Below, one piece after another: positions 13,343-42,934 of a DNA stretch of 47,082 nucleotides. Below the pieces are notes generated by a model. The model was not told the DNA's origin and did not search any database. It was given only the letters and a program-made list of their open reading frames with translations. A program made the translations under genes and the position numbers. How positions within the stretch are numbered: the stretch's first letter is position 1; every line of letters begins with the position of its first letter. This DNA is from Polyangium sp. 15x6 (GTDB lineage Bacteria; Myxococcota_A; Polyangia; Polyangiales; Polyangiaceae): contig NZ_JASBQE010000092.1 in the NCBI RefSeq assembly GCF_029960785.1, positions 1-47,082 on the forward strand, in the 5' to 3' direction.

Positions 13343-14545
13343 TCATGTGGACGGGGCAGGGGAGCGGCGTGGCTTCACGGCGCGGCGCTTCATGACGAAC
13401 CGGAGCGCCTCCTCCAGATTCCCGAGCGTCATGACGCTCCCGAGATCGACCCCGAGGCCCACGAGCGCCGTGGCCACGCCGGGATTGACGCCCGTGACGA
13501 GCGCCGTCGTGCCGAGCAGCCCGAGCGCGCGCAGCACCTTGAAGAGGTGATCGGCGGTCGTCGCGTCGACCTCGTCGATGCCCGTCATGTCGAGGATCAC
13601 GTAATGCGCTTGCTCGCTCACGACCGCGTCGAGCAAGGTGGCGAGGATGCGCTCGGCGCGCGCCGCGTCGATCGTCCCGACGAGCGGCAGCGCGAGCACG
13701 CCGTCCCATACCCGCACGATCGGCGTGGAGAGCGTGCGAATCGCGCCCTCTTGCTGCGCGATGAGGTCGAGCTGCTGGCGGAGCGTGCGTTCGGCTTCGA
13801 TGCGCTCGGTGACGTCCATCGCGACGCCGAGCACACCCTCGACGGGGTCGCCGTCGCCGCCCCGGATCGGGATGTATCGGCATTCCCAGGAGGCGCCGCC
13901 TGCATGGGCGAGAGTGACCTGGTGGGTGCCGCCGAGGGCGGCGCGGATCGCGGACAGGATTTCGGGGACGTCGCGATAAAGATCGAAGGCGCTCATGCCG
14001 ACGACCTCGCCGGGCGCGAAGCCGAGCGCGTGCAGCCCGGCGCCGTCGGAGAGCGTGAAGACGCCCTTTTCGTCGGTGGCCCAAAGCACGAGCGGGGTAT
14101 TGTCGAGCATGCGCCGGATGAACCTGCGTTCGGCGGCGAGCGTGGCGCGCGTTTCGGTGGCCTCGGTCGTGTCACGAACGAAAGCGGCGCGGCCGAGGAG
14201 ATCTCCGTTTTCGTCGCGCAGGGCGCGGAGTTGCCATTCGCAATGAAATCGCGCGCCGTCCTTCCGGGCGCACGGGGCCGAGAAGGACGGCGGGCTTTGC
14301 GTGTCGAGCTCGGCGAGGAGCGCGCCCGGGTCGACCTCCGCGTCGGGGCCGAGCAGGTCACGTATCGTTTTTCCGATGACCTCGGTCGCGCCGTAACCGA
14401 ACACGCGCTCGGCGCCCGGGTTCCACGCCACGATGGCGCCGCTCGCGTCGAGGCCCACGATGCCGATCGGCGCCTCGCGCGCGAGCGCGCGTAGCATCTT
14501 TGGATCCTCGAAATAAGCTGACGCAGTCCGTTCGTGAATACCCAT
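13343..14545 (-). CDS. PAS-PAS-STAS regulator (RsbR-like)
   Basis: A 400-aa cytoplasmic protein. Residues about 15-130 and 140-255 are two PAS domains (PIGIVGLDASGAIVAWNPGAERVFGY; TPLVLWATDEKGVFTLSDGAG), each closing with the D(T/V)TE linker. Residues about 275-390 are a STAS domain of the RsbR group: PIVRVWDGVLALPLVGTID, then LDMTGIDEVDATTADHL with two candidate phosphorylatable Thr. RsbR proteins form the core of stressosomes with RsbS and RsbT, which are not in the window. PAS modules may sense haem, flavin, redox state or ligands. The gene stands alone, with a 165-bp gap before the start. Confidence 0.88.
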   Translation of the reverse strand: MGIHERTASAYFEDPKMLRALAREAPIGIVGLDASGAIVAWNPGAERVFGYGATEVIGKTIRDLLGPDAEVDPGALLAELDTQSPPSFSAPCARKDGARFHCEWQLRALRDENGDLLGRAAFVRDTTEATETRATLAAERRFIRRMLDNTPLVLWATDEKGVFTLSDGAGLHALGFAPGEVVGMSAFDLYRDVPEILSAIRAALGGTHQVTLAHAGGASWECRYIPIRGGDGDPVEGVLGVAMDVTERIEAERTLRQQLDLIAQQEGAIRTLSTPIVRVWDGVLALPLVGTIDAARAERILATLLDAVVSEQAHYVILDMTGIDEVDATTADHLFKVLRALGLLGTTALVTGVNPGVATALVGLGVDLGSVMTLGNLEEALRFVMKRRAVKPRRSPAPST

Positions 14546-16801: not shown

Positions 16802-17602
16802 TCAGAATTCGAATGTCGATTGCACGATCGGATTGCCGTAGTCGTCGACGTTCGGCGGCCAGCCCCCCGTGCGGACCACGAGGTTCGGCGCGGCCTCGAA
16901 CACGCCTTGCCCGTGCGTGTGCCCGCAAAGCACGGTGATCCGTGTCGCTGGATGGTTTGCCGCGTACTCGGCGAGGACCTCGCCCGTCGAGACACACGTG
17001 AACCACGGGAGCCACTCCGGCGATGATTGCGCACCAGCGTACCAGCAGGCCTGGGGGAACGGCGGGACGTGCGTCAGGACGAACAGCTCTTCGGCGTCGG
17101 GCGCGCGGGCGAGCTTTTCACGCAGCACGCGGGCCTCATCGGCGCCGAGCTTTTGGAGCAGCTCGATCCGGCCGAAAGGATCCATGCGCACGTCGAAAAA
17201 ATCCGTGATCAGGTGCCAGTCGGAGAGCTGGATGGGTGAGTCGAGATCACCGCATCGCGCGTCGCCCCAGCCGTCGACGCCGAGCAAGACGACGCGGTCG
17301 TCGAGCCGCACCGGATCGACGCCGGGGAGCCAGGTCGCGAGCTTGGGGATACGCGTGACCTGCTCGCGGACGTGGCGAATGCTCGATCGGTAATAGTCGT
17401 GGTTCCCGAGCACGAAATACACCTTCGCGCCGGTCTGCGTCGCGATCTCGTCGACGAAATGCACGACCGAGTCGGACTCGGCGATGTCGCCCGAAAGGAG
17501 GACGATGTCCGGCGCTTCCGCCTCGATGGCCTCGTAAAACTGCCGGAGCGCTCGAGGGAGCGGGAAGTTCAAGTGGATGTCGGTGCACCACGTCGCGCGC
17601 AT
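16802..17602 (-). CDS. Metallophosphoesterase (calcineurin-like)
   Basis: A 266-aa phosphoesterase with all motifs of the dimetal superfamily: DIH (TDIHLN, residues 6-11), GD (LLSGDIAE, about 35-42), GNHDYY (about 66-71), the middle His in LTHVPPF, and GHTHGQG near the C-terminus. It is cytoplasmic with no signal peptide. The substrate could be a nucleotide or phosphoprotein. The start could be 17602 or 17617; neither has a clear ribosome site. It begins 40 bp after the response-regulator stop on the same strand, so it may be the last gene of the GTPase operon, though sequence alone does not show this. Confidence 0.87.
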   Translation of the reverse strand: MRATWCTDIHLNFPLPRALRQFYEAIEAEAPDIVLLSGDIAESDSVVHFVDEIATQTGAKVYFVLGNHDYYRSSIRHVREQVTRIPKLATWLPGVDPVRLDDRVVLLGVDGWGDARCGDLDSPIQLSDWHLITDFFDVRMDPFGRIELLQKLGADEARVLREKLARAPDAEELFVLTHVPPFPQACWYAGAQSSPEWLPWFTCVSTGEVLAEYAANHPATRITVLCGHTHGQGVFEAAPNLVVRTGGWPPNVDDYGNPIVQSTFEF

Positions 17603-17642
17603 GACGAGCGGAAGCATACCACGCCCGCGGCGCCCTCGTCGC

Positions 17643-18371
17643 TCACGCCGATCGGACGGAAAGGGTCGAGAGTTGCTCCTCGATCTGCGCGATCAACCAC
17701 CCGATGAAATCCTCTTTCCGCATGACACGCGAGACGTGGAGCCCCGACCAGATCGGGGAGCGGACCGCGGAGGTGTCGCAGCTCTGCACGACGACGGGCA
17801 GATCGCGCATGCGGGCGTCGCTCCGGATGGCGCGGACGAGCTCCACTCCGTTCATCACCGGCATGTGGATGTCCGTGATGACCAGCGCGACCGGGTGCGT
17901 CGCGAGCAAGGAAAGCGCGTCGCGACCATTCTCGGCCTCGAGCACCTGGAATTTTGGCTCCAGCACCGAGCGATACACGCTACGCAAAAACGAATCGTCC
18001 TCGACGAGCAAGATGGCCCCGCCCGTGGCCCCGCCGAGGACGCGCTCCACCACCGCCCGGAGCTCTCCCGCCGTGACCGGCTTCTCCACGTACCCCGAGA
18101 CGCCCTGGAGGATGGCCTCGGCCTCGCGCTTCACGACCGTGACGAACATCGTGGGGATGCCATGGCTCCGGAGGACGCGGTTGACGGCGAACCCGTCCAT
18201 TTCCGACATCAAGACGTCGACGATGGCGAGGTCCGGTCGCCACGTCGAGACGACCTTGACCGCGTCGCGACCGCTCGGGCTCATGCGCACCTCGTGCCCG
18301 ACGTCGGCGAGCGCGGTGGCCATCCAGAGCCTGGTTTCGTCGTCGTCGTCCACGATCAAAAGCTTCGCCAT
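17643..18371 (-). CDS. Response regulator with two receiver domains
   Basis: A 242-aa protein made of two REC domains and no output domain. REC1 (1-113) has the acidic pair in LIVDDDD, phospho-acceptor Asp52 (LAIVDVLMSEMDG) and Lys97 (YVEKPV). REC2 (118-235) has LLVEDDS, Asp167 (LVITDIHMPVMNG) and a less typical Lys region (VMRKEDF). Such stand-alone dual receivers work as phosphate sinks or protein-binding switches. It is 25 bp downstream of the histidine kinase gene and is presumably its partner. As no DNA-binding or enzyme domain is attached, its target is likely another protein, such as the GTPase or the OmpA-type membrane protein of the same operon. Confidence 0.9.
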   Translation of the reverse strand: MAKLLIVDDDDETRLWMATALADVGHEVRMSPSGRDAVKVVSTWRPDLAIVDVLMSEMDGFAVNRVLRSHGIPTMFVTVVKREAEAILQGVSGYVEKPVTAGELRAVVERVLGGATGGAILLVEDDSFLRSVYRSVLEPKFQVLEAENGRDALSLLATHPVALVITDIHMPVMNGVELVRAIRSDARMRDLPVVVQSCDTSAVRSPIWSGLHVSRVMRKEDFIGWLIAQIEEQLSTLSVRSA

Positions 18372-18396
18372 GGCCGGTCCTTCCTCGCTCTGTCCT

Positions 18397-19524
18397 TCAC
18401 GCCGCCAGGGTCCCTGTCGAGCTGGGGGGCTTGCGGAGGCGGAACCAGAACCGGGCGCCTCCCTCGGGAGGCGCGGCGTACCCGATCGAGCCGCCCCAGC
18501 GCTCGACGGTGATGCGGCAGAAGTAGAGCCCGAGCCCCGTGCCCGCCTCGGGCCCGATCCCCCGGCCGAAGCGCTGGAACAGGCGCGTCGCGAGCGAAGG
18601 TGGCACGCCGGGTCCCTCGTCCTCGACGCTCACCTCGACGCTCGTGTCCTCCTCGCGCACGCGGACGCGCACGTGGCCCCCGACCGGGCTGTGGCGGACC
18701 GCGTTGTCGAGCAGGTTCGCGAGGACCCGCAAGAGCCGCGGTTCGTCCGCGACGACGAGGCTCGGGAGCGGCGGCACGTCCCGCTCGATGCGCACGTTGC
18801 GGCCGCGCGCGGTGAGCTCGTGCTCGGCGACGACGCGGAGGATCCCGGCGCGTAGATCGGAGATCGCGGTCTCCTCGTGCGTGGTGTCGAGGTCGCCGTG
18901 CTCGGACGCGAACACGCTCAGGATCTCGCGGATCATCCGGCGCTGTCGGAGCGCCGCGTCGAGCGCGAGGGCGATCATGTCGCCGTCCTCGCCGGGCGGA
19001 TGTCGCTCGTCGAGGGACGAGAGCACGCCGAGGATCGTCTGGAGCGGGTTCGCGAGATCGTGGACGATGCAATGCATGAGGATGTCCTTCTGCTCGATCT
19101 CGCGGGCGAGCGCGTCATGGGTGATGCGCAGCTCGCGGGCGCGCTGCAGGACCAGGCGCCGCTCGTGGAAGAGCTCGTCGCAGCGGGTGATCACGAGCAG
19201 GCGGCAAGGGCCCACGAGGAGCGCGGTCGCCGCGAGAGGCAGCTCCTCGCCGCTTTCGGCGGTCTCGCACCAGAGGTCGGAGTCGAGCCGCGTCAGACCT
19301 CCGCTCTCTGCCTGCCAGACGGCCTCTGCCTCGGGCAGGAAGACGGAGAGGAACGGGAACATGCACTCCACGCGGATGGGCGTGTTCGCGCGGAGGACGC
19401 CCCGCAGCATGCGCGAATACCAGTCGGGCGCGCTTCCGCGTTGCAAGAACGTGCCGTCTGGCTGGCGTTCGAGGACGACCTTTTCGAGGGACGCGAGGAT
19501 CGAGCTGGCAATCGAGGTCTCCAT
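18397..19524 (-). CDS. Soluble sensor histidine kinase
   Basis: A 375-aa kinase without membrane segments. The N-terminal 120 residues form an unrecognised sensor region; DWYSRMLRGVLRANTPIRVE and a conserved-looking FPFLSVFLPEAEAVW stand out. A coiled region (120-148) leads to the H-box HDLANPLQ with His155. The ATPase has the N-box LANLLDNAVRHSP, G1 EDEGPGVP, F-box FQRFGRG and G2 GTGLGLYF. It lies 14 bp after the GTPase gene and 25 bp before the dual receiver, so kinase and receiver are a likely pair within a GTPase operon. The start at 19524 is fixed by this spacing. Confidence 0.9.
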   Translation of the reverse strand: METSIASSILASLEKVVLERQPDGTFLQRGSAPDWYSRMLRGVLRANTPIRVECMFPFLSVFLPEAEAVWQAESGGLTRLDSDLWCETAESGEELPLAATALLVGPCRLLVITRCDELFHERRLVLQRARELRITHDALAREIEQKDILMHCIVHDLANPLQTILGVLSSLDERHPPGEDGDMIALALDAALRQRRMIREILSVFASEHGDLDTTHEETAISDLRAGILRVVAEHELTARGRNVRIERDVPPLPSLVVADEPRLLRVLANLLDNAVRHSPVGGHVRVRVREEDTSVEVSVEDEGPGVPPSLATRLFQRFGRGIGPEAGTGLGLYFCRITVERWGGSIGYAAPPEGGARFWFRLRKPPSSTGTLAA

Positions 19525-19538
19525 GGCAGGCCTGCCCT

Positions 19539-20042
19539 TCAGCGCTGGAGCAGCGCGTGGCCGAGCGCGCGGAACGCTTCTTCGACGCCCGCGCCGGTCT
19601 TCGCGCTCGCCTCGAAGACGGAAAAACGCGCGGTGAGCTCCCGCTCGTAGGCGTCGTCGAGCTCCCAGAAGGCGCGCAGATCGGCCTTGTTCAGCACGAG
19701 GACACGAGGCACGTCGCCCACGACTTCCGCGGCGACGTGGTGGAGGGCGATCGCGGTCTCCACCGTGGCGCGGCGGGTCCCGTCGGCGACGAGCAGGTAG
19801 CCCGCGGCGCCGCGCAGGTACGAGAGGCGGACGCGCTGGAACTCGTCCTCGCCGCTGAGATCCCAGAGCACCAGGACGAGCTCGTGATCGCCGTAGGTGA
19901 GGTGCTTCGTCTCGATCTTCGTGCCGATCGTGGTCAGGTATTGATCCGAGAAGATGCTGCGGACGAAGCGCATGACGAGGCTCGTCTTGCCGACGCCCGT
20001 CGCGCCGAGCAGGCAAACCTTCCGCTTCTCCAGCGTGTTCAT
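19539..20042 (-). CDS. Ras/Rab-like small GTPase
   Basis: A 167-aa small GTPase with every Ras-fold motif: P-loop GATGVGKT (13-20), switch I Thr in TTIGTK (37-42), switch II DLSGEDEF (61-68), NKAD (118-121) and SAK (146-148). It resembles eukaryotic Rab/Ras more than the usual bacterial Era/Obg group. The position of Ras Gln61 is Glu65 here (DxxGE), so hydrolysis may depend on a partner protein. The start ATG at 20042 overlaps the stop of the OmpA-type gene by 4 bp (ATGA), and the kinase gene follows after 14 bp. It could be a polarity switch as MglA is in Myxococcus; no MglB-like gene is visible nearby. Confidence 0.92.
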   Translation of the reverse strand: MNTLEKRKVCLLGATGVGKTSLVMRFVRSIFSDQYLTTIGTKIETKHLTYGDHELVLVLWDLSGEDEFQRVRLSYLRGAAGYLLVADGTRRATVETAIALHHVAAEVVGDVPRVLVLNKADLRAFWELDDAYERELTARFSVFEASAKTGAGVEEAFRALGHALLQR

Positions 20043-21769
20043 GACCCCTCGCTCGCCGGCGAAAGGCGCACGTGGAAGGTCACCTTGCGCGCGGCCAGAT
20101 CCGCTTCGCCCACGCCCCGCACGGAGAGCCGATCCGAAGCGACGCCGCGCGCGTCGAGCTCGGCCGCCACGCTCGAAGCGCGCTCCTCGCTGAGGTGCTG
20201 GTATTTCTCGGGTGTGCCCGTCGCGTCGGCGTGCCCCACGATCTCGATCCGCGCGGAGAGGCCACCCCGCGGGGCGGCGTCGAGGAGCGCCTGCACGGCG
20301 CGCGCCGCGGCGTCGAGGCGGGCGCGCTCGGCAAGAAGCGGACTTGCCGAGCCGGGCGGGAACGAGATCTGGAGGCCCTCCAGCGTGGCCGCCGCGGCCC
20401 TCGCGGACGTGATCGCCTCGGCCTCGAAGAGGCGCGTGTCGTCGAGCGCCGTGACGCCTGGGAGGCTCGTGGCGAGCAGACGCGCCCGGTCGATCCACGC
20501 GCGCTCGGCGACGCCCGCGGCCACGAGCGTCCCTCCCGCGAGGCGCAGCGAGACGTCGGGCGGAGGCCGCAGCACCTGGAACGCGCGTCGCTCCGTGAGT
20601 GGAGGATCCAGCGAGTAAACCGGCTTGAAGCGCAGCTCGACGTCGGACGCGCGCAGGCCGTGGGGCGCGAGCAGGGCGGCGGGGTCCTGCGCGAGCGGAT
20701 CCCCGAGCCCTTCGACGAAGCGGCGTCCTCCGTCGCGCCCCGTCCGCGTGACCGTCAGGCCGGGCTCCTCGCCGAGCGCCTCCAAGTACGCGTCGAACCG
20801 CGCGTTTCGGTCGTGCACGACCTTCCACCCGATCCCGGCGCCGACCAGGGCGAGGACTGCGATCGCCGCGAGCGCGAGGGTGCCGCGGCGGCGGCTCTTC
20901 GGCTTCTGAATGCGCTCCTCGCGCATGCACCCGACGAGCGCGTCGCGGGTCGGCTCGAACGTGGCCACATCGCCTTTGAACTGCTCGAGCGGGGCCGCGT
21001 AGGTTCGGTGGATCTGCTCCAGCGTCTCGGCGAGTGATGCCTCCACGTCCTTCGTGGCGACGCCGCGGACGATGGCGACCAGCATGGCGCGTGGCCCGTG
21101 CTCGACGACGCCCGTGAGCCCACCGACGCAGAAGCGTGACAGGCCCGCCTCTTTTTCTTCGCGAAACGCGTCCCGCGCGAAATCGTCGATGGCCGCGAGC
21201 ATCGCCGACACCTGATCGGGATCCTCCGCCGCCACGTTCTCCGCCGCGACGTGCTGCAAGACGAGCCCACTCTCGCGATGCACCAGGAACACGTGCTCCA
21301 CCCGATAGGCGAGGTTGTGGAGCATCACGACCTCGACGAACGGCCGGCCGGTGCGGGCCGCCTCGATGCGCCAGCGCAGGCTCTCCAGCGTCATCGTCTG
21401 CTGCACCATGTCGTCGACCCGCTGGAGGAGCCCTTCGAGCGCGGCGCGGGCGGCCTTCCGGACGGCCGGGCCGATCGAGGGGAAGATGGCGTCCGCGAAG
21501 AGCTCCGGGTTTTTCCGGACGGTCTCGTGGATGCTCGACAGCATGAGCGGCTGCATCGCGGACGAGAGCTCCTCGCCGCGCTTCTGGCTCGCGACGGCGG
21601 CCTGGGGCAGCACCTCGCCGATGGCCTCGGCGAGGGCCTCGGGCGTCTCGAGCTTGTGTTCGAGGGACTTCAGCCGCTCCTGTTCGGGTTTCACGAGGAA
21701 CGGGCGCAGGTCGTCGAGGGTGTAGTCGTGTTCTCGCCGCCGCGCCCGCGCGCGCAGGCGGGCGCTCAT
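20039..21769 (-). CDS. Inner-membrane protein with C-terminal OmpA domain
   Basis: A 576-aa protein with one membrane helix at about 297-316, preceded by Lys/Arg residues (KPKSRRR), which puts residues 1-295 in the cytoplasm. The cytoplasmic part has a helical region and then a sheet-like stretch (PFVEVVMLHNLAYRVEHVFLVHRESGLVLQHV) that recalls sensor or Roadblock/longin-type folds. The periplasmic part has a domain at 325-440 and an OmpA/MotB peptidoglycan-binding domain at about 465-570 (EIVGHADATGTPEKYQHLSEERASSV); the usual Asn after Tyr is Gln. It overlaps both neighbours by ATGA junctions. It probably links the cell wall to the cytoplasmic GTPase. Confidence 0.85.
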   Translation of the reverse strand: MSARLRARARRREHDYTLDDLRPFLVKPEQERLKSLEHKLETPEALAEAIGEVLPQAAVASQKRGEELSSAMQPLMLSSIHETVRKNPELFADAIFPSIGPAVRKAARAALEGLLQRVDDMVQQTMTLESLRWRIEAARTGRPFVEVVMLHNLAYRVEHVFLVHRESGLVLQHVAAENVAAEDPDQVSAMLAAIDDFARDAFREEKEAGLSRFCVGGLTGVVEHGPRAMLVAIVRGVATKDVEASLAETLEQIHRTYAAPLEQFKGDVATFEPTRDALVGCMREERIQKPKSRRRGTLALAAIAVLALVGAGIGWKVVHDRNARFDAYLEALGEEPGLTVTRTGRDGGRRFVEGLGDPLAQDPAALLAPHGLRASDVELRFKPVYSLDPPLTERRAFQVLRPPPDVSLRLAGGTLVAAGVAERAWIDRARLLATSLPGVTALDDTRLFEAEAITSARAAAATLEGLQISFPPGSASPLLAERARLDAAARAVQALLDAAPRGGLSARIEIVGHADATGTPEKYQHLSEERASSVAAELDARGVASDRLSVRGVGEADLAARKVTFHVRLSPASEGS

Positions 21770-22332
21770 GACTGCTCGGCGCGAGGCTCCGGGGTGCGTG
21801 TGGCCTCGACAACCCCGCTCGCGGGGCCGCTGGCCTCCGAGGGCTCGCCGGTGTACAGGGCGAGCTCACGCTGGAGCGTGGACATGAGCTCGTCCCTGAG
21901 GGAGCGTGATTGCTCGACGAACCCCTTGGCTTCGTCGAGGATCTGTTGTCGGAAATCACGCTGCGCCCGGATCAGCCCGTCCTCGAGCTTCTTGATGCGC
22001 TGGTCGAGCTCGGCGACGGCGTCCCGCGCCTCGCGCGCGACGTTGTTCAGCGCGGCCATCTGGGCGGTGCGGTCGGATTCCCGCTGCGCGTTCTGCGCGT
22101 CCGTTTCGCGCTTCACGTGGGCTTCGAGCACGTCGATCATGCGCCTCGTATCGGCGCGGAGCTCTTCGCCCTGCGACGCGACCAGGCCCTCGATGCGGGC
22201 GATCTTTCGCTCGAAATCGCGAACGTAGGCGCCGAACAGGATCTCGCGCACCTGATCGAGGCTGTTCGCCGGTGACGGCGCGGCGTGCGTGGTCCCCCTG
22301 CTTTCGAGCTCGGCTCGTGCACTCGGGTTCAT
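21766..22332 (-). CDS. Coiled-coil protein, first gene of the GTPase operon
   Basis: A 188-aa, mostly helical protein of unknown family. Residues 25-50 (SLDQVREILFGAYVRDF...) form a compact block that looks conserved; residues about 45-155 are heptad-rich coiled coil (charged, few Pro or Gly); the tail is Pro/Glu-rich and probably disordered. There is no signal peptide or membrane helix. The start at 22332 has AGGGGA in front, and the upstream in-frame Met codons lack one. The stop overlaps the OmpA-type gene's start (ATGA at 21766-21769). It is likely a cytoplasmic adaptor or scaffold between the membrane protein and the GTPase. Confidence 0.8.
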   Translation of the reverse strand: MNPSARAELESRGTTHAAPSPANSLDQVREILFGAYVRDFERKIARIEGLVASQGEELRADTRRMIDVLEAHVKRETDAQNAQRESDRTAQMAALNNVAREARDAVAELDQRIKKLEDGLIRAQRDFRQQILDEAKGFVEQSRSLRDELMSTLQRELALYTGEPSEASGPASGVVEATRTPEPRAEQS

Positions 22333-27403: not shown

Positions 27404-28756
27404 ATGCGTGTGCAATCGTATCATCTTTTTTGGATAGGGGTCGTCACGCTCGCCGCCGCTGTGGGCTGCGGCGGGCAGACGAACGAAGTGGACGCGACAT
27501 CGGTGGGCGCCGGCGGGGCTGGCGGAGGCGGGAACGGTGGGGCTGGCGGAGGCGGGGCCGGCGGAGCGGGAGGCGAGACGTGCGACGCGCTCGTTCCCCT
27601 TGGCGAGCCGGTCGTCGTCGATGGGCCATTGGACCAGTCCGCGCTCTCCCCGAAGCTCGTGCGATCGGGCCTCGACGCGAAGACCGTGGTGCTCGCTTTC
27701 GTGGGCGCGCCGGTCGGGGGGCCCGCGGGCGCTTTGAACGACATTCACCTCCGCTTTCTTCTGGATCCCTGGAGCACGTGGCCGCCGACCGAGGGGTCGA
27801 ATGTCGCGCTGGCCGACGCGCAAGGGCCCTTCGTGATATCCGAGGGCGCAGGCATCGAGGTCGCCACACTCCGCGGCACGAGCGCTGGGCCCGTGCGATA
27901 TCAGGTCATCCCCAGCCTGGACATGGGGTTCCCGTCCTTCCCGTCCTCCTCGCTCCCGCCCGACGCGACCCAGGCAGCCCTCCTCCGAATGCATCCCGGG
28001 GGGCACATCGTCGGATATGGGCGCCCCCACGCCGGAGATACGATAGAGCTCCTCGTCGGGCTCGGCCATCACGACCAGAAGCCCACCGCGGAGGGATTCA
28101 CGCCCATCGGCTGCACGAAAACCTCCGTGCTGATGGACGCCGTCCATACGGAGAAAGGGACGCTCGTCGGCTTTGCGAGCAATGACGAGTCGCCGAGCGC
28201 CAAGGGCTGCACGGGCTCGCTCGGGGCCGCGACGAGGGTCGCCGTCGCCCGCGTCACCGATGGGAGCCCGGTCGGCACCGAGCTCGCCGCGACGACGCCC
28301 GACAATCCGGCGTGGATCATGGGGCTCGCCATGGCAGGCCGCAACGACGGCGCGTGGGTGACCGTGGGGCGATCGGGTTGGATTGAGGCGACGGCCACGA
28401 TCCTGGCGCACTTGCTCGACGCGGCAGGGGCCTCGGTGGCAGCGCCGTTCAACTTGGCGGGATCGAGTGACCTCAATCCGGATTCCGTCGGCGCCAGCAG
28501 CATGGCCGGCGATCTCGTCGCCGCGTGGTCCTACGGCGGGCTGCCGCCCGACCGTATCGAGGTGAAGCGCATCAACGCCGCGGGCGCGGTCGTGGCCACC
28601 GCGATGATCGAAGCAAACCCCAGCCTCTCCCAGCCGATCGCCGTCCTTGGATCCCCCACGGGCGACGCCGTGCTCCTCGCGTATTCGTCGATCTCGCCGG
28701 TGGACCAGACTGCACGTATCCATCTCCAGCGGCTCGGTTGCGTTCCTGCGCCCTGA
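27404..28756 (+). CDS. Gly-rich-linker lipoprotein, beta-rich
   Basis: A 450-aa lipoprotein. The signal peptide MRVQSYHLFWIGVVTLAAAVGC has its lipobox Cys at 22, and a long Gly/Ala spacer (about 33-55) follows. The remaining about 390 residues are beta-rich with repeated AVARVTDG / LAHLLDAAGA / VKRINAAGAVV units like WD40-like or integrin-type surface propellers; only a few Cys. No enzyme motif was found. ATG 27404 lacks a clear ribosome site but opens directly into the signal peptide. It is ended by a strong terminator at 28759-28786. Confidence 0.78.
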   Translation: MRVQSYHLFWIGVVTLAAAVGCGGQTNEVDATSVGAGGAGGGGNGGAGGGGAGGAGGETCDALVPLGEPVVVDGPLDQSALSPKLVRSGLDAKTVVLAFVGAPVGGPAGALNDIHLRFLLDPWSTWPPTEGSNVALADAQGPFVISEGAGIEVATLRGTSAGPVRYQVIPSLDMGFPSFPSSSLPPDATQAALLRMHPGGHIVGYGRPHAGDTIELLVGLGHHDQKPTAEGFTPIGCTKTSVLMDAVHTEKGTLVGFASNDESPSAKGCTGSLGAATRVAVARVTDGSPVGTELAATTPDNPAWIMGLAMAGRNDGAWVTVGRSGWIEATATILAHLLDAAGASVAAPFNLAGSSDLNPDSVGASSMAGDLVAAWSYGGLPPDRIEVKRINAAGAVVATAMIEANPSLSQPIAVLGSPTGDAVLLAYSSISPVDQTARIHLQRLGCVPAP

Positions 28757-28758
28757 GC

Positions 28759-28786
28759 GCGCCCCCAGGCGGGCGCATTTTTTTTT
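28759..28786 (+). terminator. Rho-independent terminator
   Basis: GCGCCC (28759-28764) and GGGCGC (28771-28776) form a 6-bp GC stem with a 6-nt loop, followed by A and nine T residues (28778-28786). It lies directly after the stop of the lipoprotein gene ending at 28756. Confidence 0.85.
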
Positions 28787-28868
28787 GCTATCCTCCTCCT
28801 CGGTGACCGTTGTAGAGAAGTCACAATGGTCGCGGGGGCTCACTCCCGCGGAGCGAGGGACAGCCGCA

Positions 28869-30287
28869 ATGAACACGTTCAATTTCACACAAGCCGACGG
28901 CTCGTCACGGGCCGTCGTCGGATATCGGTATGCGCCGCCCAAGGCTGCGGCGAAGCGTTACGTCGCCGGCCGCGGCAATCTCTCGCGGTTGCCCCCCAAG
29001 GTCGATCTCCGGCCGTTCATGTCGCCGATCGAGGATCAGAAGAACACGAACAGCTGCGCCGCCAACGCCACGGCGGGCGCCTACGAGTACCTCGTCAAGC
29101 GCCACCTGGGCGAAGACGCCTACGACGTGAGCCGCCTCTTCATTTATTACAACGGCCGCGCCGTCGACGACCCCGAGAACATCGAGGACGAGGGCAGCTT
29201 CCTGCAATCCGTCATCGCGAGCCTCGAGGCGCACGGCGCGTGCTCGGAGGAGACCTGGGCCTTCGATGTCGAGGCCGTCAACGAGCAGCCCTCGGACGAG
29301 GCGTACCAGGAAGCCGCGCACTTCCGCATCGAGGACACCGAGCTCGTCCCGACGAACCTCGAGGCCTGGAAGACGGCGCTCGCGGAGGGGCACCCGATCA
29401 TCTTCGGCGTCAAGCTCTTCTCCTCGTTCGACAAGCACAAGAAGGCGGGCCTCGTCCCCGTCCCGACCCCGCGGGAGACCGGGCGCGAGAGCCACGGCGG
29501 ACACGCGATGCTCTGCGTCGGTTATTCGGACCCGGACCAGGTCTTCATCGTCCGCAACTCCTGGGGACCGGAATGGGGCGACAAGGGATATTGCTACATC
29601 CCTTATCGGTACCTCATGAACGAGGAATACAACTTCGGCGACTCGTGGATCATCAAGCGTATCGACGTCCTGCCGCCCGACGAGGAGACCTGGTCCGACG
29701 ACGAGGAGTCCGTGCTGGAGGACGTATCGAGCGTCCTCGCCCAGCTCGACGAGGACGAATATACGAGCCTCCTCGACCGCATGGGCGACGTTCCGCTCGA
29801 AGTGCGGCTCTCGCTCCTCTTCTTGTGCGCCGCGGGCGCGGACGGGGACATCGCGGATGACGAGCTGCGGGCCACGGCGGAGTACGTCACGCCCGTGCTC
29901 GAGCAACTCGGCTCGCGGCAAAGCGCGGAGAAGGTGCTGCGCAATGCGCTGCGCCGCCTCGATGACGAGCAGCTCGTGGAGGAAACCATCGAGATCCTCG
30001 GCGAGGTCTTCTCGCAGGAGGTGCTCGCCTCGATCGCGTCCCAGCTCCAGGAGATCGTCGGCTCCGACGACGACGTCTCCGAAGAGGAGCAGGGCTTCGT
30101 CGACGCCGTCGTCGAGCGCTGGCAGATCGAGCCCGCGGAGGACGAGGGCGACGAGGACGACGAGGAGGAGGACGAGGGCGACGAGGACGACGAGGACGAC
30201 GAGGAGGAGGACGAGGAGGACGAGGGCGACGAGGAGGAAGACGAAGGCGACGAGGAAGAGGACGAGGACGAGGAAGAAGACGAGTAG
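28869..30287 (+). CDS. Papain-like (C1A) protease fused to TerB-like domain and acidic tail
   Basis: A 472-aa protein. Residues about 40-265 are a C1A peptidase: Gln57 (oxyanion), Cys63 (NSCAAN), His212 (GGHAMLCVGYS) and Asn230 (VRNSWGPEWGDKGY). It starts with a short propeptide-like piece but has no signal peptide. Residues about 298-420 are helical with the acidic LFLCAAGADGDIADDELRA motif of TerB-type domains. The last 50 residues (423-472) are almost only Glu and Asp with a few Gly. ATG 28869 follows GAGGGACA. The acid tail may bind calcium or basic proteins. It is probably a cytoplasmic protease, or one exported by another route. The neighbours do not explain it. Confidence 0.88.
   Translation: MNTFNFTQADGSSRAVVGYRYAPPKAAAKRYVAGRGNLSRLPPKVDLRPFMSPIEDQKNTNSCAANATAGAYEYLVKRHLGEDAYDVSRLFIYYNGRAVDDPENIEDEGSFLQSVIASLEAHGACSEETWAFDVEAVNEQPSDEAYQEAAHFRIEDTELVPTNLEAWKTALAEGHPIIFGVKLFSSFDKHKKAGLVPVPTPRETGRESHGGHAMLCVGYSDPDQVFIVRNSWGPEWGDKGYCYIPYRYLMNEEYNFGDSWIIKRIDVLPPDEETWSDDEESVLEDVSSVLAQLDEDEYTSLLDRMGDVPLEVRLSLLFLCAAGADGDIADDELRATAEYVTPVLEQLGSRQSAEKVLRNALRRLDDEQLVEETIEILGEVFSQEVLASIASQLQEIVGSDDDVSEEEQGFVDAVVERWQIEPAEDEGDEDDEEEDEGDEDDEDDEEEDEEDEGDEEEDEGDEEEDEDEEEDE
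30137..30284 (+). repeat. GAG/GAC low-complexity tract (acidic tail)
   Basis: About 148 bp composed nearly only of GAG, GAA, GAC and GGC codons encode the acidic end of the protease-TerB protein. Such tracts vary in length by slippage and leave long spurious open frames on the opposite strand. Confidence 0.8.
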
Positions 30288-41513: not shown

Positions 41514-42830
41514 TCAAGGGCGAAAACGGACGGCCTCGCCCCGCCGGGTGGGGCCGTAGCTCGCCGCGGCGACGAGCGTGTTCCGGTCATAAAGGAGGAT
41601 GGTCCCGCCGCGATTGCCGAGCGCCATGCCCCCGTCGACGTCGCGGCGCAGCTCGACCTCGAGGTCCTCGCCCGCACCGAGCGTCCCTCCGAGCGGCGCG
41701 GAGCGCGCCATGCGATCCCGCAAGGCCCAGCCCGAAAGCTCGATTTCCTCCGAAGACACGTTGCGCAGGCGAATCCATTCCGTCCCGCTGTCCGGGTGAG
41801 GCATCGCCTCCTCGATGACGACCGGCCCCTCGTTGCGCAGAGCTGCTCCCACGGGCCGGATCACGACAGGGCCTTCCTCCAGCGCGTCGGCCCTGCCGTC
41901 CCCGACGAAGACCGGATAAAGCGATCGAATGTGGTCGCCGGGGGAGCCGTCTTCACGGATGTTGCGGCAAAGGACGAGATCGTAGGTCTCGTCATGGATC
42001 CGGATGCGCCGCCGGATGCCCTCGAAGAGGCCGGCCACGCTCTCGTGGAAAGCGACGGCGCCGATGGCGAGGTCGAACGCGGGGCTCGTGCCGACGAAGA
42101 ATCCGCCGATCTTCTTGAACAGCTCGGCCCGCATCGTCCCCGATAGGTCGAAATAGTACGAGAGCATCTGGAGCGTCACCGAGCTCGGCGCCGAGCGAGG
42201 GTCGGGGTGGCGCACGCCGCACTGATACCCCAGATAGTTCACGCGCCGGTGGGACTCGTCCAGGTAAAACTTGATCCACGAATGGTACCCGGAGAGCTCG
42301 CCCAGCGCCTGGGCGTCGCGGCGTGGATCGTACCGGCCTTCCCCCACGAAGACGTGCTCGAACCCGGAGGCGTCCGAAAGGACACGGCCGCCGTAATGGT
42401 TCGTGTAGGTCCGAAACCACAGGTCCCGCAGGTGTTCCTGGAGAGACGCCTCGGAAAGCGCGTGCCCGAGCTCCTCGCGAATGTACACGAGCGCGCGCTG
42501 CATCACGGGCGTCTGGGCGATGGTTCGAAGGAAATCGTGGATCTCCCGCCCTTCTTCCGGCGTCTCGATCTCCGGGGCGTACGGGTCGGGGATGTAATTG
42601 TCGAGGAGAGTGACGAACGCCGCATACGTCGGCCTCTGGAGGACGGTCGGATCGACGTAGGCGAAGAGCGGGCGCGTCGCGAGATCGATGTGGCGCTTGC
42701 CGGATGCGCAGCCCTGGAGATCGAGCTTCACGTGGGCGTCCTCCGGGATCCACGTGTCCTCGGCCGTTCGGGCCGCGACGCGGCATCCCTCGTGCGCCTG
42801 ATCGAGATCCCATAACTCCTCGTAGATCAT
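41514..42830 (-). CDS. XendoU-type EndoU endoribonuclease with C-terminal lamin-tail domain
   Basis: A 438-aa protein. Residues 1-310 match the eukaryotic XendoU/EndoU family of poly(U)-specific endoribonucleases: GFEHVFVGE (Glu158, His159, Glu164), GYHSWIKFY (His183) and KKIGGFFVGTSPAFDLAI (Lys239/240), corresponding to the catalytic His-His-Lys set. Residues about 335-435 form a lamin-tail (LTD) domain (EWIRLRNVSSEEIELSGWALRD). There is no signal peptide. The start at 42830 has AGGGGG five bases before it. EndoU of this type is rare in bacteria and differs from the EndoU toxin domains of CdiA. A role in RNA turnover or as an antibacterial or anti-phage nuclease is possible. Confidence 0.85.
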   Translation of the reverse strand: MIYEELWDLDQAHEGCRVAARTAEDTWIPEDAHVKLDLQGCASGKRHIDLATRPLFAYVDPTVLQRPTYAAFVTLLDNYIPDPYAPEIETPEEGREIHDFLRTIAQTPVMQRALVYIREELGHALSEASLQEHLRDLWFRTYTNHYGGRVLSDASGFEHVFVGEGRYDPRRDAQALGELSGYHSWIKFYLDESHRRVNYLGYQCGVRHPDPRSAPSSVTLQMLSYYFDLSGTMRAELFKKIGGFFVGTSPAFDLAIGAVAFHESVAGLFEGIRRRIRIHDETYDLVLCRNIREDGSPGDHIRSLYPVFVGDGRADALEEGPVVIRPVGAALRNEGPVVIEEAMPHPDSGTEWIRLRNVSSEEIELSGWALRDRMARSAPLGGTLGAGEDLEVELRRDVDGGMALGNRGGTILLYDRNTLVAAASYGPTRRGEAVRFRP

Positions 42831-42934
42831 AGAGCCCCCTCGGAAATATCTATGGCCGAGGAGGCCCGGCGGCCATCCCACCCGAGCGCCCGTCCCGCGC
42901 TGGAATTACGAGAGATCCTGGCGGGACCACGCGT

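Follow-up and report, generated by a model that had tools for sequence, protein, structure and literature searches.

The gene block at 22332 to 17643 on the minus strand of a 47,082-nucleotide stretch of Polyangium sp. 15x6 (contig NZ_JASBQE010000092.1, positions 1 to 47,082; hereafter the window), on one of the contigs of a 13.4 Mb genome, brings together genes for five proteins: one that is likely a coiled coil, an OmpA-domain membrane protein, a GTPase of Rab-like type, a histidine kinase and a protein with two receiver domains. As judged from its sequence, the operon almost certainly belongs to the Group 1 Rup group of small GTPases, and the best explanation, with a probability of about 0.6, is a Group 1 Rup signalling module wired from the cell wall through the GTPase to an output enzyme.

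The gene set is of an already described kind, of which the Polyangium operon is a further member. In the consulted passages of a comparative genomics study (Wuichet and Sogaard-Andersen, 2014; PMC4316618), the Group 1 Rup GTPase lacks the glutamine of the G3 motif, is uncoupled from MglB and is encoded beside a coiled-coil protein, an unknown domain with, in many cases, a membrane helix and an OmpA domain behind it, and an output enzyme with an invariant glutamine in its N-terminal part; Fig. 3 of the study marks a member from Sorangium cellulosum, of which Fig. 4A shows a model. All five features looked for were found in the operon, namely the size and family of the GTPase, a G3 motif without glutamine, the absence of an MglB neighbour, the coiled-coil and membrane protein neighbours and the glutamine of the output. 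Compared with the consulted passages of PMC4316618, the Polyangium operon adds the two-receiver gene, and its relatives feature class III cyclase and HD outputs, apparent tandem adaptors and one to four copies of a periplasmic spacer, which are absent from those passages. A sequence-only reading of the window had proposed a path from peptidoglycan through the GTPase to the kinase for which it could name no standard system. The path fits the anatomy of the encoded proteins, but as it comes close to the published Group 1 Rup hypothesis (PMC4316618, as consulted) it is not new, and the operon matches the neighbourhood described there. According to the same passages, no Rup protein had been experimentally characterised by 2014, and no later experimental Rup study was found in the open-licence literature searched, outside which most subscription papers fall.

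A Rab-like GTPase uncoupled from MglB

The GTPase consists of a single domain, the length of which lies inside the Group 1 Rup size criterion of 150-240 aa, and its nearest solved structures by sequence are Rabs (Rab35, 3.2e-22; a Thorarchaeota Rab, 5.5e-21). The catalytic glutamine of G3 was found by pattern reading in none of 35 GTPases of the loci examined, the pattern match in L110 being doubtful, and the 36th (L109) has alanine at this position as read by eye. In the source genome two other GTPases match (1.9e-7 and 5.1e-4), only the operon GTPase doing so closely. Group 1 Rup proteins have been placed close to the eukaryotic Rab/Ran/Ras/Rho group (consulted passages of PMC4316618 and PMC4915359).

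A closer partner such as MglB, the finding of which would have spoken against a system built on these five genes, did not emerge. No Roadblock or MglB gene neighbours the GTPase, and the two Roadblock matches in the source genome (E 0.001) are both located on contigs other than that of the operon. An mglBA-like pair is present on contig C203; its GTPase reads TVPGQVF in the G3 region and scores 35.7 bits with the Rup profile, compared with 250.8 bits for the operon GTPase. The operon is thus not an MglA/MglB system as defined by a coupled Roadblock GTPase-activating protein (GAP) and an MglA-type GTPase. Like the MglA/MglB/RomR proteins of Myxococcus it ties a small GTPase to receiver proteins; unlike them, its GTPase is Rab-like and not MglA-type.

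In one genus with 4.2 Mb genomes, a lone related GTPase has an altered G3 region (L109, L110; WDYEGA in L109), and no module genes were found near it.

Conservation and co-inheritance of the module

A total of 37 loci were examined: the Polyangium sp. 15x6 locus, 15 loci recovered via the membrane protein or from plasmids (L042-L056), which are biased towards the module because of how they were found, 20 loci recovered via the GTPase (L094-L113), and L184. The class-wide listing comprised 40 places in 33 of 289 genomes; 28 of these places were examined and 12 left out. The core of coiled coil, membrane protein, GTPase and output is met again with its gene order kept in distant Myxococcota, as well as on plasmids of Rhizobiales and Nostoc. 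The membrane protein is present in all six Polyangium genomes searched, the five others at 74-91% identity and with all five genes in place, and three named Polyangium records hold it at 82-90% identity. In 12 of the 20 GTPase-anchored loci, the coiled-coil, membrane protein and GTPase genes follow one another in this order on the same strand. Scattering of the genes in relatives, which according to the sequence-only reading would refute a system, is thus mostly not seen, although a few relatives have the parts split or rearranged (L104, L111, L112).

Of 72,556 plasmid records, four carry the GTPase, three from Rhizobiales and one from Nostoc, and these four records also encode the membrane protein, preceded by the coiled-coil gene and followed by an output, which is annotated in a Mesorhizobium record as adenylate/guanylate cyclase. 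The plasmid search with the membrane protein gave 18 other matches, in Vibrio, to the OmpA domain only. A scan of viral contigs for further relatives found none. A search of the phylum with the whole membrane protein gave matches in 105 of 282 genomes; besides the source genome, six had a match extending into the N-domain of the membrane protein, the other matches being confined to the OmpA domain or its vicinity.

In the phylum sample the module is sparse, the N-domain being found in 14 of 377 Myxococcota genomes (E up to 1e-8) and a GTPase of this type in 21 of 377 (E up to 1e-20), where the two 377-genome draws are taken as identical because handles and counts agree. All 14 genomes with the N-domain are among the 21 with the GTPase, and the other seven belong to one genus. 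The hypergeometric P values of 1e-20, and of 2e-15 by genus, ignore phylogeny, related genomes not being independent. Likewise, the correlation of GTPase and N-domain distances (r 0.92; 13 representatives, 78 pairs), as well as those of the other pairs of parts (0.68-0.84), partly reflect species history. Genome G308 has two modules, of which the cyclase-type module is in every part closer to the cyclase-type module of another genus than to the kinase-type module of its own genome, with identities of 73 and 49% for the GTPase, 65 and 41% for the N-domain, 63 and 40% for the coiled coil and 52 and 10% for the adaptor. These matched parts argue for a unit that evolves together, the output included.

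Further arrangements were observed. In two genomes with a cyclase as output of the full module there is also a second GTPase with a histidine kinase (L102, L103), possibly two output arms of a single sensor. The gene that precedes this pair in L103 encodes a protein of beta-barrel type in which TSP_3 repeats are combined with an OmpA domain (4.4e-24). In one genome the module appears to be split over two loci: L105 has coiled coil, membrane protein and GTPase and no output, and L104 combines coiled coil and GTPase with a kinase that bears apparent tandem adaptors.

An N-terminal glutamine in nearly all aligned output enzymes

Outputs are swapped between modules, and the kinase is but one kind. 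The 31 outputs aligned comprise 22 kinases, seven class III cyclases, one GGDEF and one HD protein, with totals counted by domain family, individual members assigned by the author and the kinase of L047, the frame of which is broken, recognised by tblastn. L109 and L112 had no output, and L105, L110 and L111 were dropped because the next gene was not an output. In the aligned N-termini the column of Q127 holds glutamine in 30 of the 31 and arginine in L051, the next best column being a glycine in 27 of 31; in a second alignment of 17 of these outputs, Q127 is the sole nearly invariant position besides the start methionine. Identity of the adaptors to the Polyangium sp. 15x6 member ranges from 14 to 52%. 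With the adaptor profile, four matches to solved structures up to E 1 were obtained, the best two being phytochrome kinases at positions 128-168, next to the kinase core (E 0.006). A PAS fold was raised from the strand pattern and dropped, as no Pfam family matched the Polyangium sp. 15x6 member. In the source genome only the operon output matches the adaptor closely, the other match being partial (6.1e-4). Two adaptor-like regions in apparent tandem were seen by eye in each of the outputs of L104 and L184, the latter outside the 31.

By their sequence motifs the kinase and the two-receiver protein constitute a two-component pair, with H155 as phospho-acceptor, N270 in the N-box, D302 in G1 and G328 in G2 of the HisKA kinase, and with an acidic pocket and an aspartate in the receiver domains. 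Homologues of the two-receiver gene are present in all six Polyangium loci, in three loci of one related genus (L096-L098) and in L108; no strong match was found in L094, L095, L099 (another genus) or more distant loci, and weaker receiver matches are present in L055, L100 and L103. The gene looks like an add-on of this branch. As it is lineage-specific, the conserved core amounts to four genes, which the five-gene unit of the earlier reading overstates.

Several observations, together with the dependence of the above statistics on shared ancestry, weigh against the signalling module as its parts are described here. The full order is lacking in 8 of the 20 GTPase-anchored loci: L101 and L102 are interrupted by a contig end, in L103 a GTPase is paired with a kinase and the genes for coiled coil and N-domain are missing, in L104 a coiled coil but no membrane protein is present, L109 and L110 contain nothing of the module but the GTPase, and in L111 and L112 the parts are rearranged. 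The OmpA pattern was matched in 20 of 31 membrane proteins, some of the others having divergent ends, and the domain is apparently absent from those of L051, L111 and L112. The sole GGDEF output, that of L051, is also the one without the glutamine. As no Pfam family was matched by the kinase adaptor, the existence of a common adaptor is deduced from a single alignment column together with weak similarity. Residues 94-113 of the kinase form a hydrophobic stretch with a maximum of 1.79, compared with 2.16 for the transmembrane helix of the OmpA protein; it is read as strands of the N-terminal domain, so that the kinase is probably soluble, as the sequence-only reading had it.

The lone GTPases, the split loci and the relatives without a two-receiver gene would also fit a chance or housekeeping neighbourhood, in which a two-component pair merely lies beside an OmpA-GTPase pair. 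This explanation is very improbable in view of the gene order shared by Myxococcota with the plasmids of Rhizobiales and Nostoc, of the strict co-occurrence in the 377-genome sample and of a glutamine common to outputs of unrelated catalytic classes.

The membrane protein and its cytosolic domain

The membrane protein has a single transmembrane-like stretch in the Kyte-Doolittle plot. Its periplasmic spacer was detected in 29 of 31 membrane proteins, the exceptions being L052, with a broken frame, and L055. Polyangium sp. 15x6 and most others have one copy, to which a partial one is added in L049 and L050, and each of three Rhizobiales proteins of about 1,020 aa has four copies (L053, L054, L056); the spacer may set the reach to the wall.

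The cytosolic domain of the Polyangium sp. 15x6 member matches no Pfam family above the cut-off. That it is a divergent Roadblock/longin domain, so that membrane protein and GTPase would form an MglAB-like pair in which a wall anchor carries the GAP, with another role for the glutamine of the output, appears doubtful. The conserved core reads, in the author's view of the alignment, as helix, two strands, helix, strands and helix, and MfpD of the mfp conservon is reported to have a Roadblock-like fold (consulted part of PMC13015309). The best alignment of the domain profile with MglB pairs the expected helix-strand-strand region and scores 20.1, as opposed to 14.9 for reversed MglB; its probability is 1.3% and its P value 0.039, and one of 40 column shuffles scored higher (21.4). 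There is no Roadblock match to the domain in Pfam or among solved structures. Two AlphaFold models, built on alignments of three Polyangium sequences, are of very low confidence (predicted local distance difference test, pLDDT, of 38 and 46), and a Foldseek search with the second of them gave nothing at E <=0.001, the best match being REV7 complexes at 0.12, which was not used.

The coiled-coil assignment of the first protein in the operon is likely, as judged from composition and from weak helical matches, Pfam giving only sub-threshold matches to helical families. The protein is 82-94% identical in the five other Polyangium loci, and among 11 homologues R29 and G34 are invariant and L32, F33 and E48 nearly so.

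A proposed path from the wall to the output enzyme

The basis of the signalling module at the level of sequence is the co-inheritance of four parts, coiled coil, OmpA membrane protein, Rab-like GTPase and output enzyme; direction, signal, the roles of GAP and guanine nucleotide exchange factor, and phenotype are inferred. In the proposed relay the OmpA domain would hold peptidoglycan in the periplasm, and the state of the wall or envelope would alter the cytosolic domain, with the coiled-coil protein assisting. The cytosolic domain would in turn recruit the GTPase and set its nucleotide state; lacking a cysteine at its C-terminus to which a lipid tail could be attached, the GTPase would depend on docking at this domain. 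The GTPase would then bind the N-terminal adaptor of the output enzyme and switch the enzyme, which in Polyangium would be the histidine kinase, with the two-receiver protein as the likely next phospho-acceptor. No DNA-binding domain was found in the latter by Pfam, so that it would act by protein contact. This direction, from wall via membrane protein, GTPase and output adaptor to the enzyme, is modestly favoured, since swapped outputs behind one kind of GTPase speak for it.

We consider it unlikely that the wiring runs in reverse, with the kinase as sensor and the GTPase as output, on which the two-receiver protein would act in the manner of RomR on MglA. In the actinobacterial conservons (Cvn), which likewise pair a small GTPase with a histidine kinase in an operon, the MglA-type GTPase is thought to be the output of the kinase system, and in Myxococcus MglA has the response regulator RomR as an interaction partner (consulted passages of PMC4316618). 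Moreover, the two-receiver gene follows the kinase in the lineage of Polyangium. However, many kinase-type modules have no two-receiver gene found beside them, and in relatives the place of the kinase is taken by nucleotide cyclases, by a GGDEF protein or by an HD protein, which produce or degrade second messengers and are natural outputs, not regulators of a GTPase. The conservons also differ in composition, with an MglB homologue, an MglA-type GTPase, a membrane-spanning kinase and no OmpA protein among their four proteins (PMC4316618, as consulted).

Under the forward wiring, the glutamine of the adaptor may complete the active site of the GTPase, and docking would then transmit the signal and terminate it as well. 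In TBC-type GAPs, which act on the eukaryotic Rabs that are the nearest solved relatives of the GTPase, the glutamine is supplied in trans; unlike in the eukaryotic system, the operon GTPase has no cysteine for prenylation and the candidate glutamine sits in the effector itself. One pairing provides a hint: the sole output without the glutamine (L051, arginine) is coupled with the sole GTPase that has histidine at the G3 glutamine position, a single case, and histidine is also found at this position in EF-Tu. We put forward the glutamine in trans tentatively; it has been speculated upon before (consulted passages of PMC4316618). A plug-and-play relay, in which one Rab-like switch would drive any adaptor-bearing enzyme, the effector being the GAP with its glutamine in trans and one docking event firing and timing the signal, is more speculative still and must be considered doubtful. 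The roles in polarity, motility or envelope stress suggested by the sequence-only reading are unsupported by these results.

With its clear order, one copy in each of the six Polyangium genomes searched and swappable outputs, the module is a good entry point; its study could show the role of a bacterial Rab-like switch and how a GTPase without a catalytic glutamine is turned off.

Gene layout and neighbourhood

All five reading frames of the operon were confirmed, and the overlaps and gaps of the sequence-only reading were located where it had placed them, as ATGA overlaps at 21766-21769 (genes 1 and 2) and 20039-20042 (genes 2 and 3) and as gaps of 14 bp (19525-19538, genes 3 and 4) and 25 bp (18372-18396, genes 4 and 5). 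Its OmpA domain, Ras-like GTPase, histidine kinase and dual receivers are each supported by Pfam (Table 1). The first gene may start at 22332 or further upstream, as far as 22476; the former is preferred because conservation favours it.

Table 1. Genes, domains and key residues of the Polyangium sp. 15x6 operon, in window coordinates
Feature	Position	Strand	Basis
Gene 1, likely cytoplasmic coiled-coil protein, 188 aa	21766..22332	-	Reading frame; homologue conservation
Gene 2, membrane protein, 576 aa: cytosolic domain, one transmembrane helix, periplasmic spacer, OmpA	20039..21769	-	Reading frame, Pfam, hydropathy
Cytosolic domain of gene 2, conserved part, aa 128-272	20954..21388	-	Homologue alignment
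Transmembrane helix of gene 2, aa 295-319	20813..20887	-	Kyte-Doolittle, 19-residue maximum 2.16
Periplasmic spacer domain of gene 2, one copy, about aa 324-460	20390..20800	-	Profile built in this analysis
OmpA domain of gene 2, aa 505-562, motif GHADATG...LSEERA	20084..20257	-	PF00691, 2.7e-10
Gene 3, Rab-like (Group 1 Rup) GTPase, 167 aa	19539..20042	-	Pfam PF00071 Ras family, 7.9e-30
G3 motif of gene 3, D61-L-S-G-E65 (WDLSGED), Glu replacing the catalytic Gln	19848..19862	-	Sequence
Gene 4 (output), histidine kinase, 375 aa	18397..19524	-	Pfam HATPase_c 5.1e-27, HisKA 1.9e-6
Codon of Q127 of gene 4, glutamine common to outputs of different enzyme classes	19144..19146	-	Output alignment
Gene 5 (lineage-specific), two receiver domains, 242 aa	17643..18371	-	Pfam

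A scan for promoters found none, and a terminator scan gave 6 sites, compared with a shuffle mean of 3.2, and was not used for any reading. Downstream of the block by 25 bp is a metallophosphoesterase gene (16802-17617), which adjoins the block in two of the five other Polyangium loci. Directly upstream, a MuiA-family gene (DUF4139/DUF4140, TIGR02231; 22508-24418, minus strand) is kept in all six Polyangium loci; in a check of L047-L052 and L053-L056 no MuiA match was found, and MuiA was left out of the module parts.

Elsewhere in the window, the minus strand encodes an RPE65-family protein (408-1763; 1.4e-117), a protein with PAS domains followed by a STAS domain (13343-14545) and an XendoU endoribonuclease domain fused with a lamin-tail domain (41514-42881), and the plus strand a papain-family protease domain fused with a TerB domain (28647-30287).

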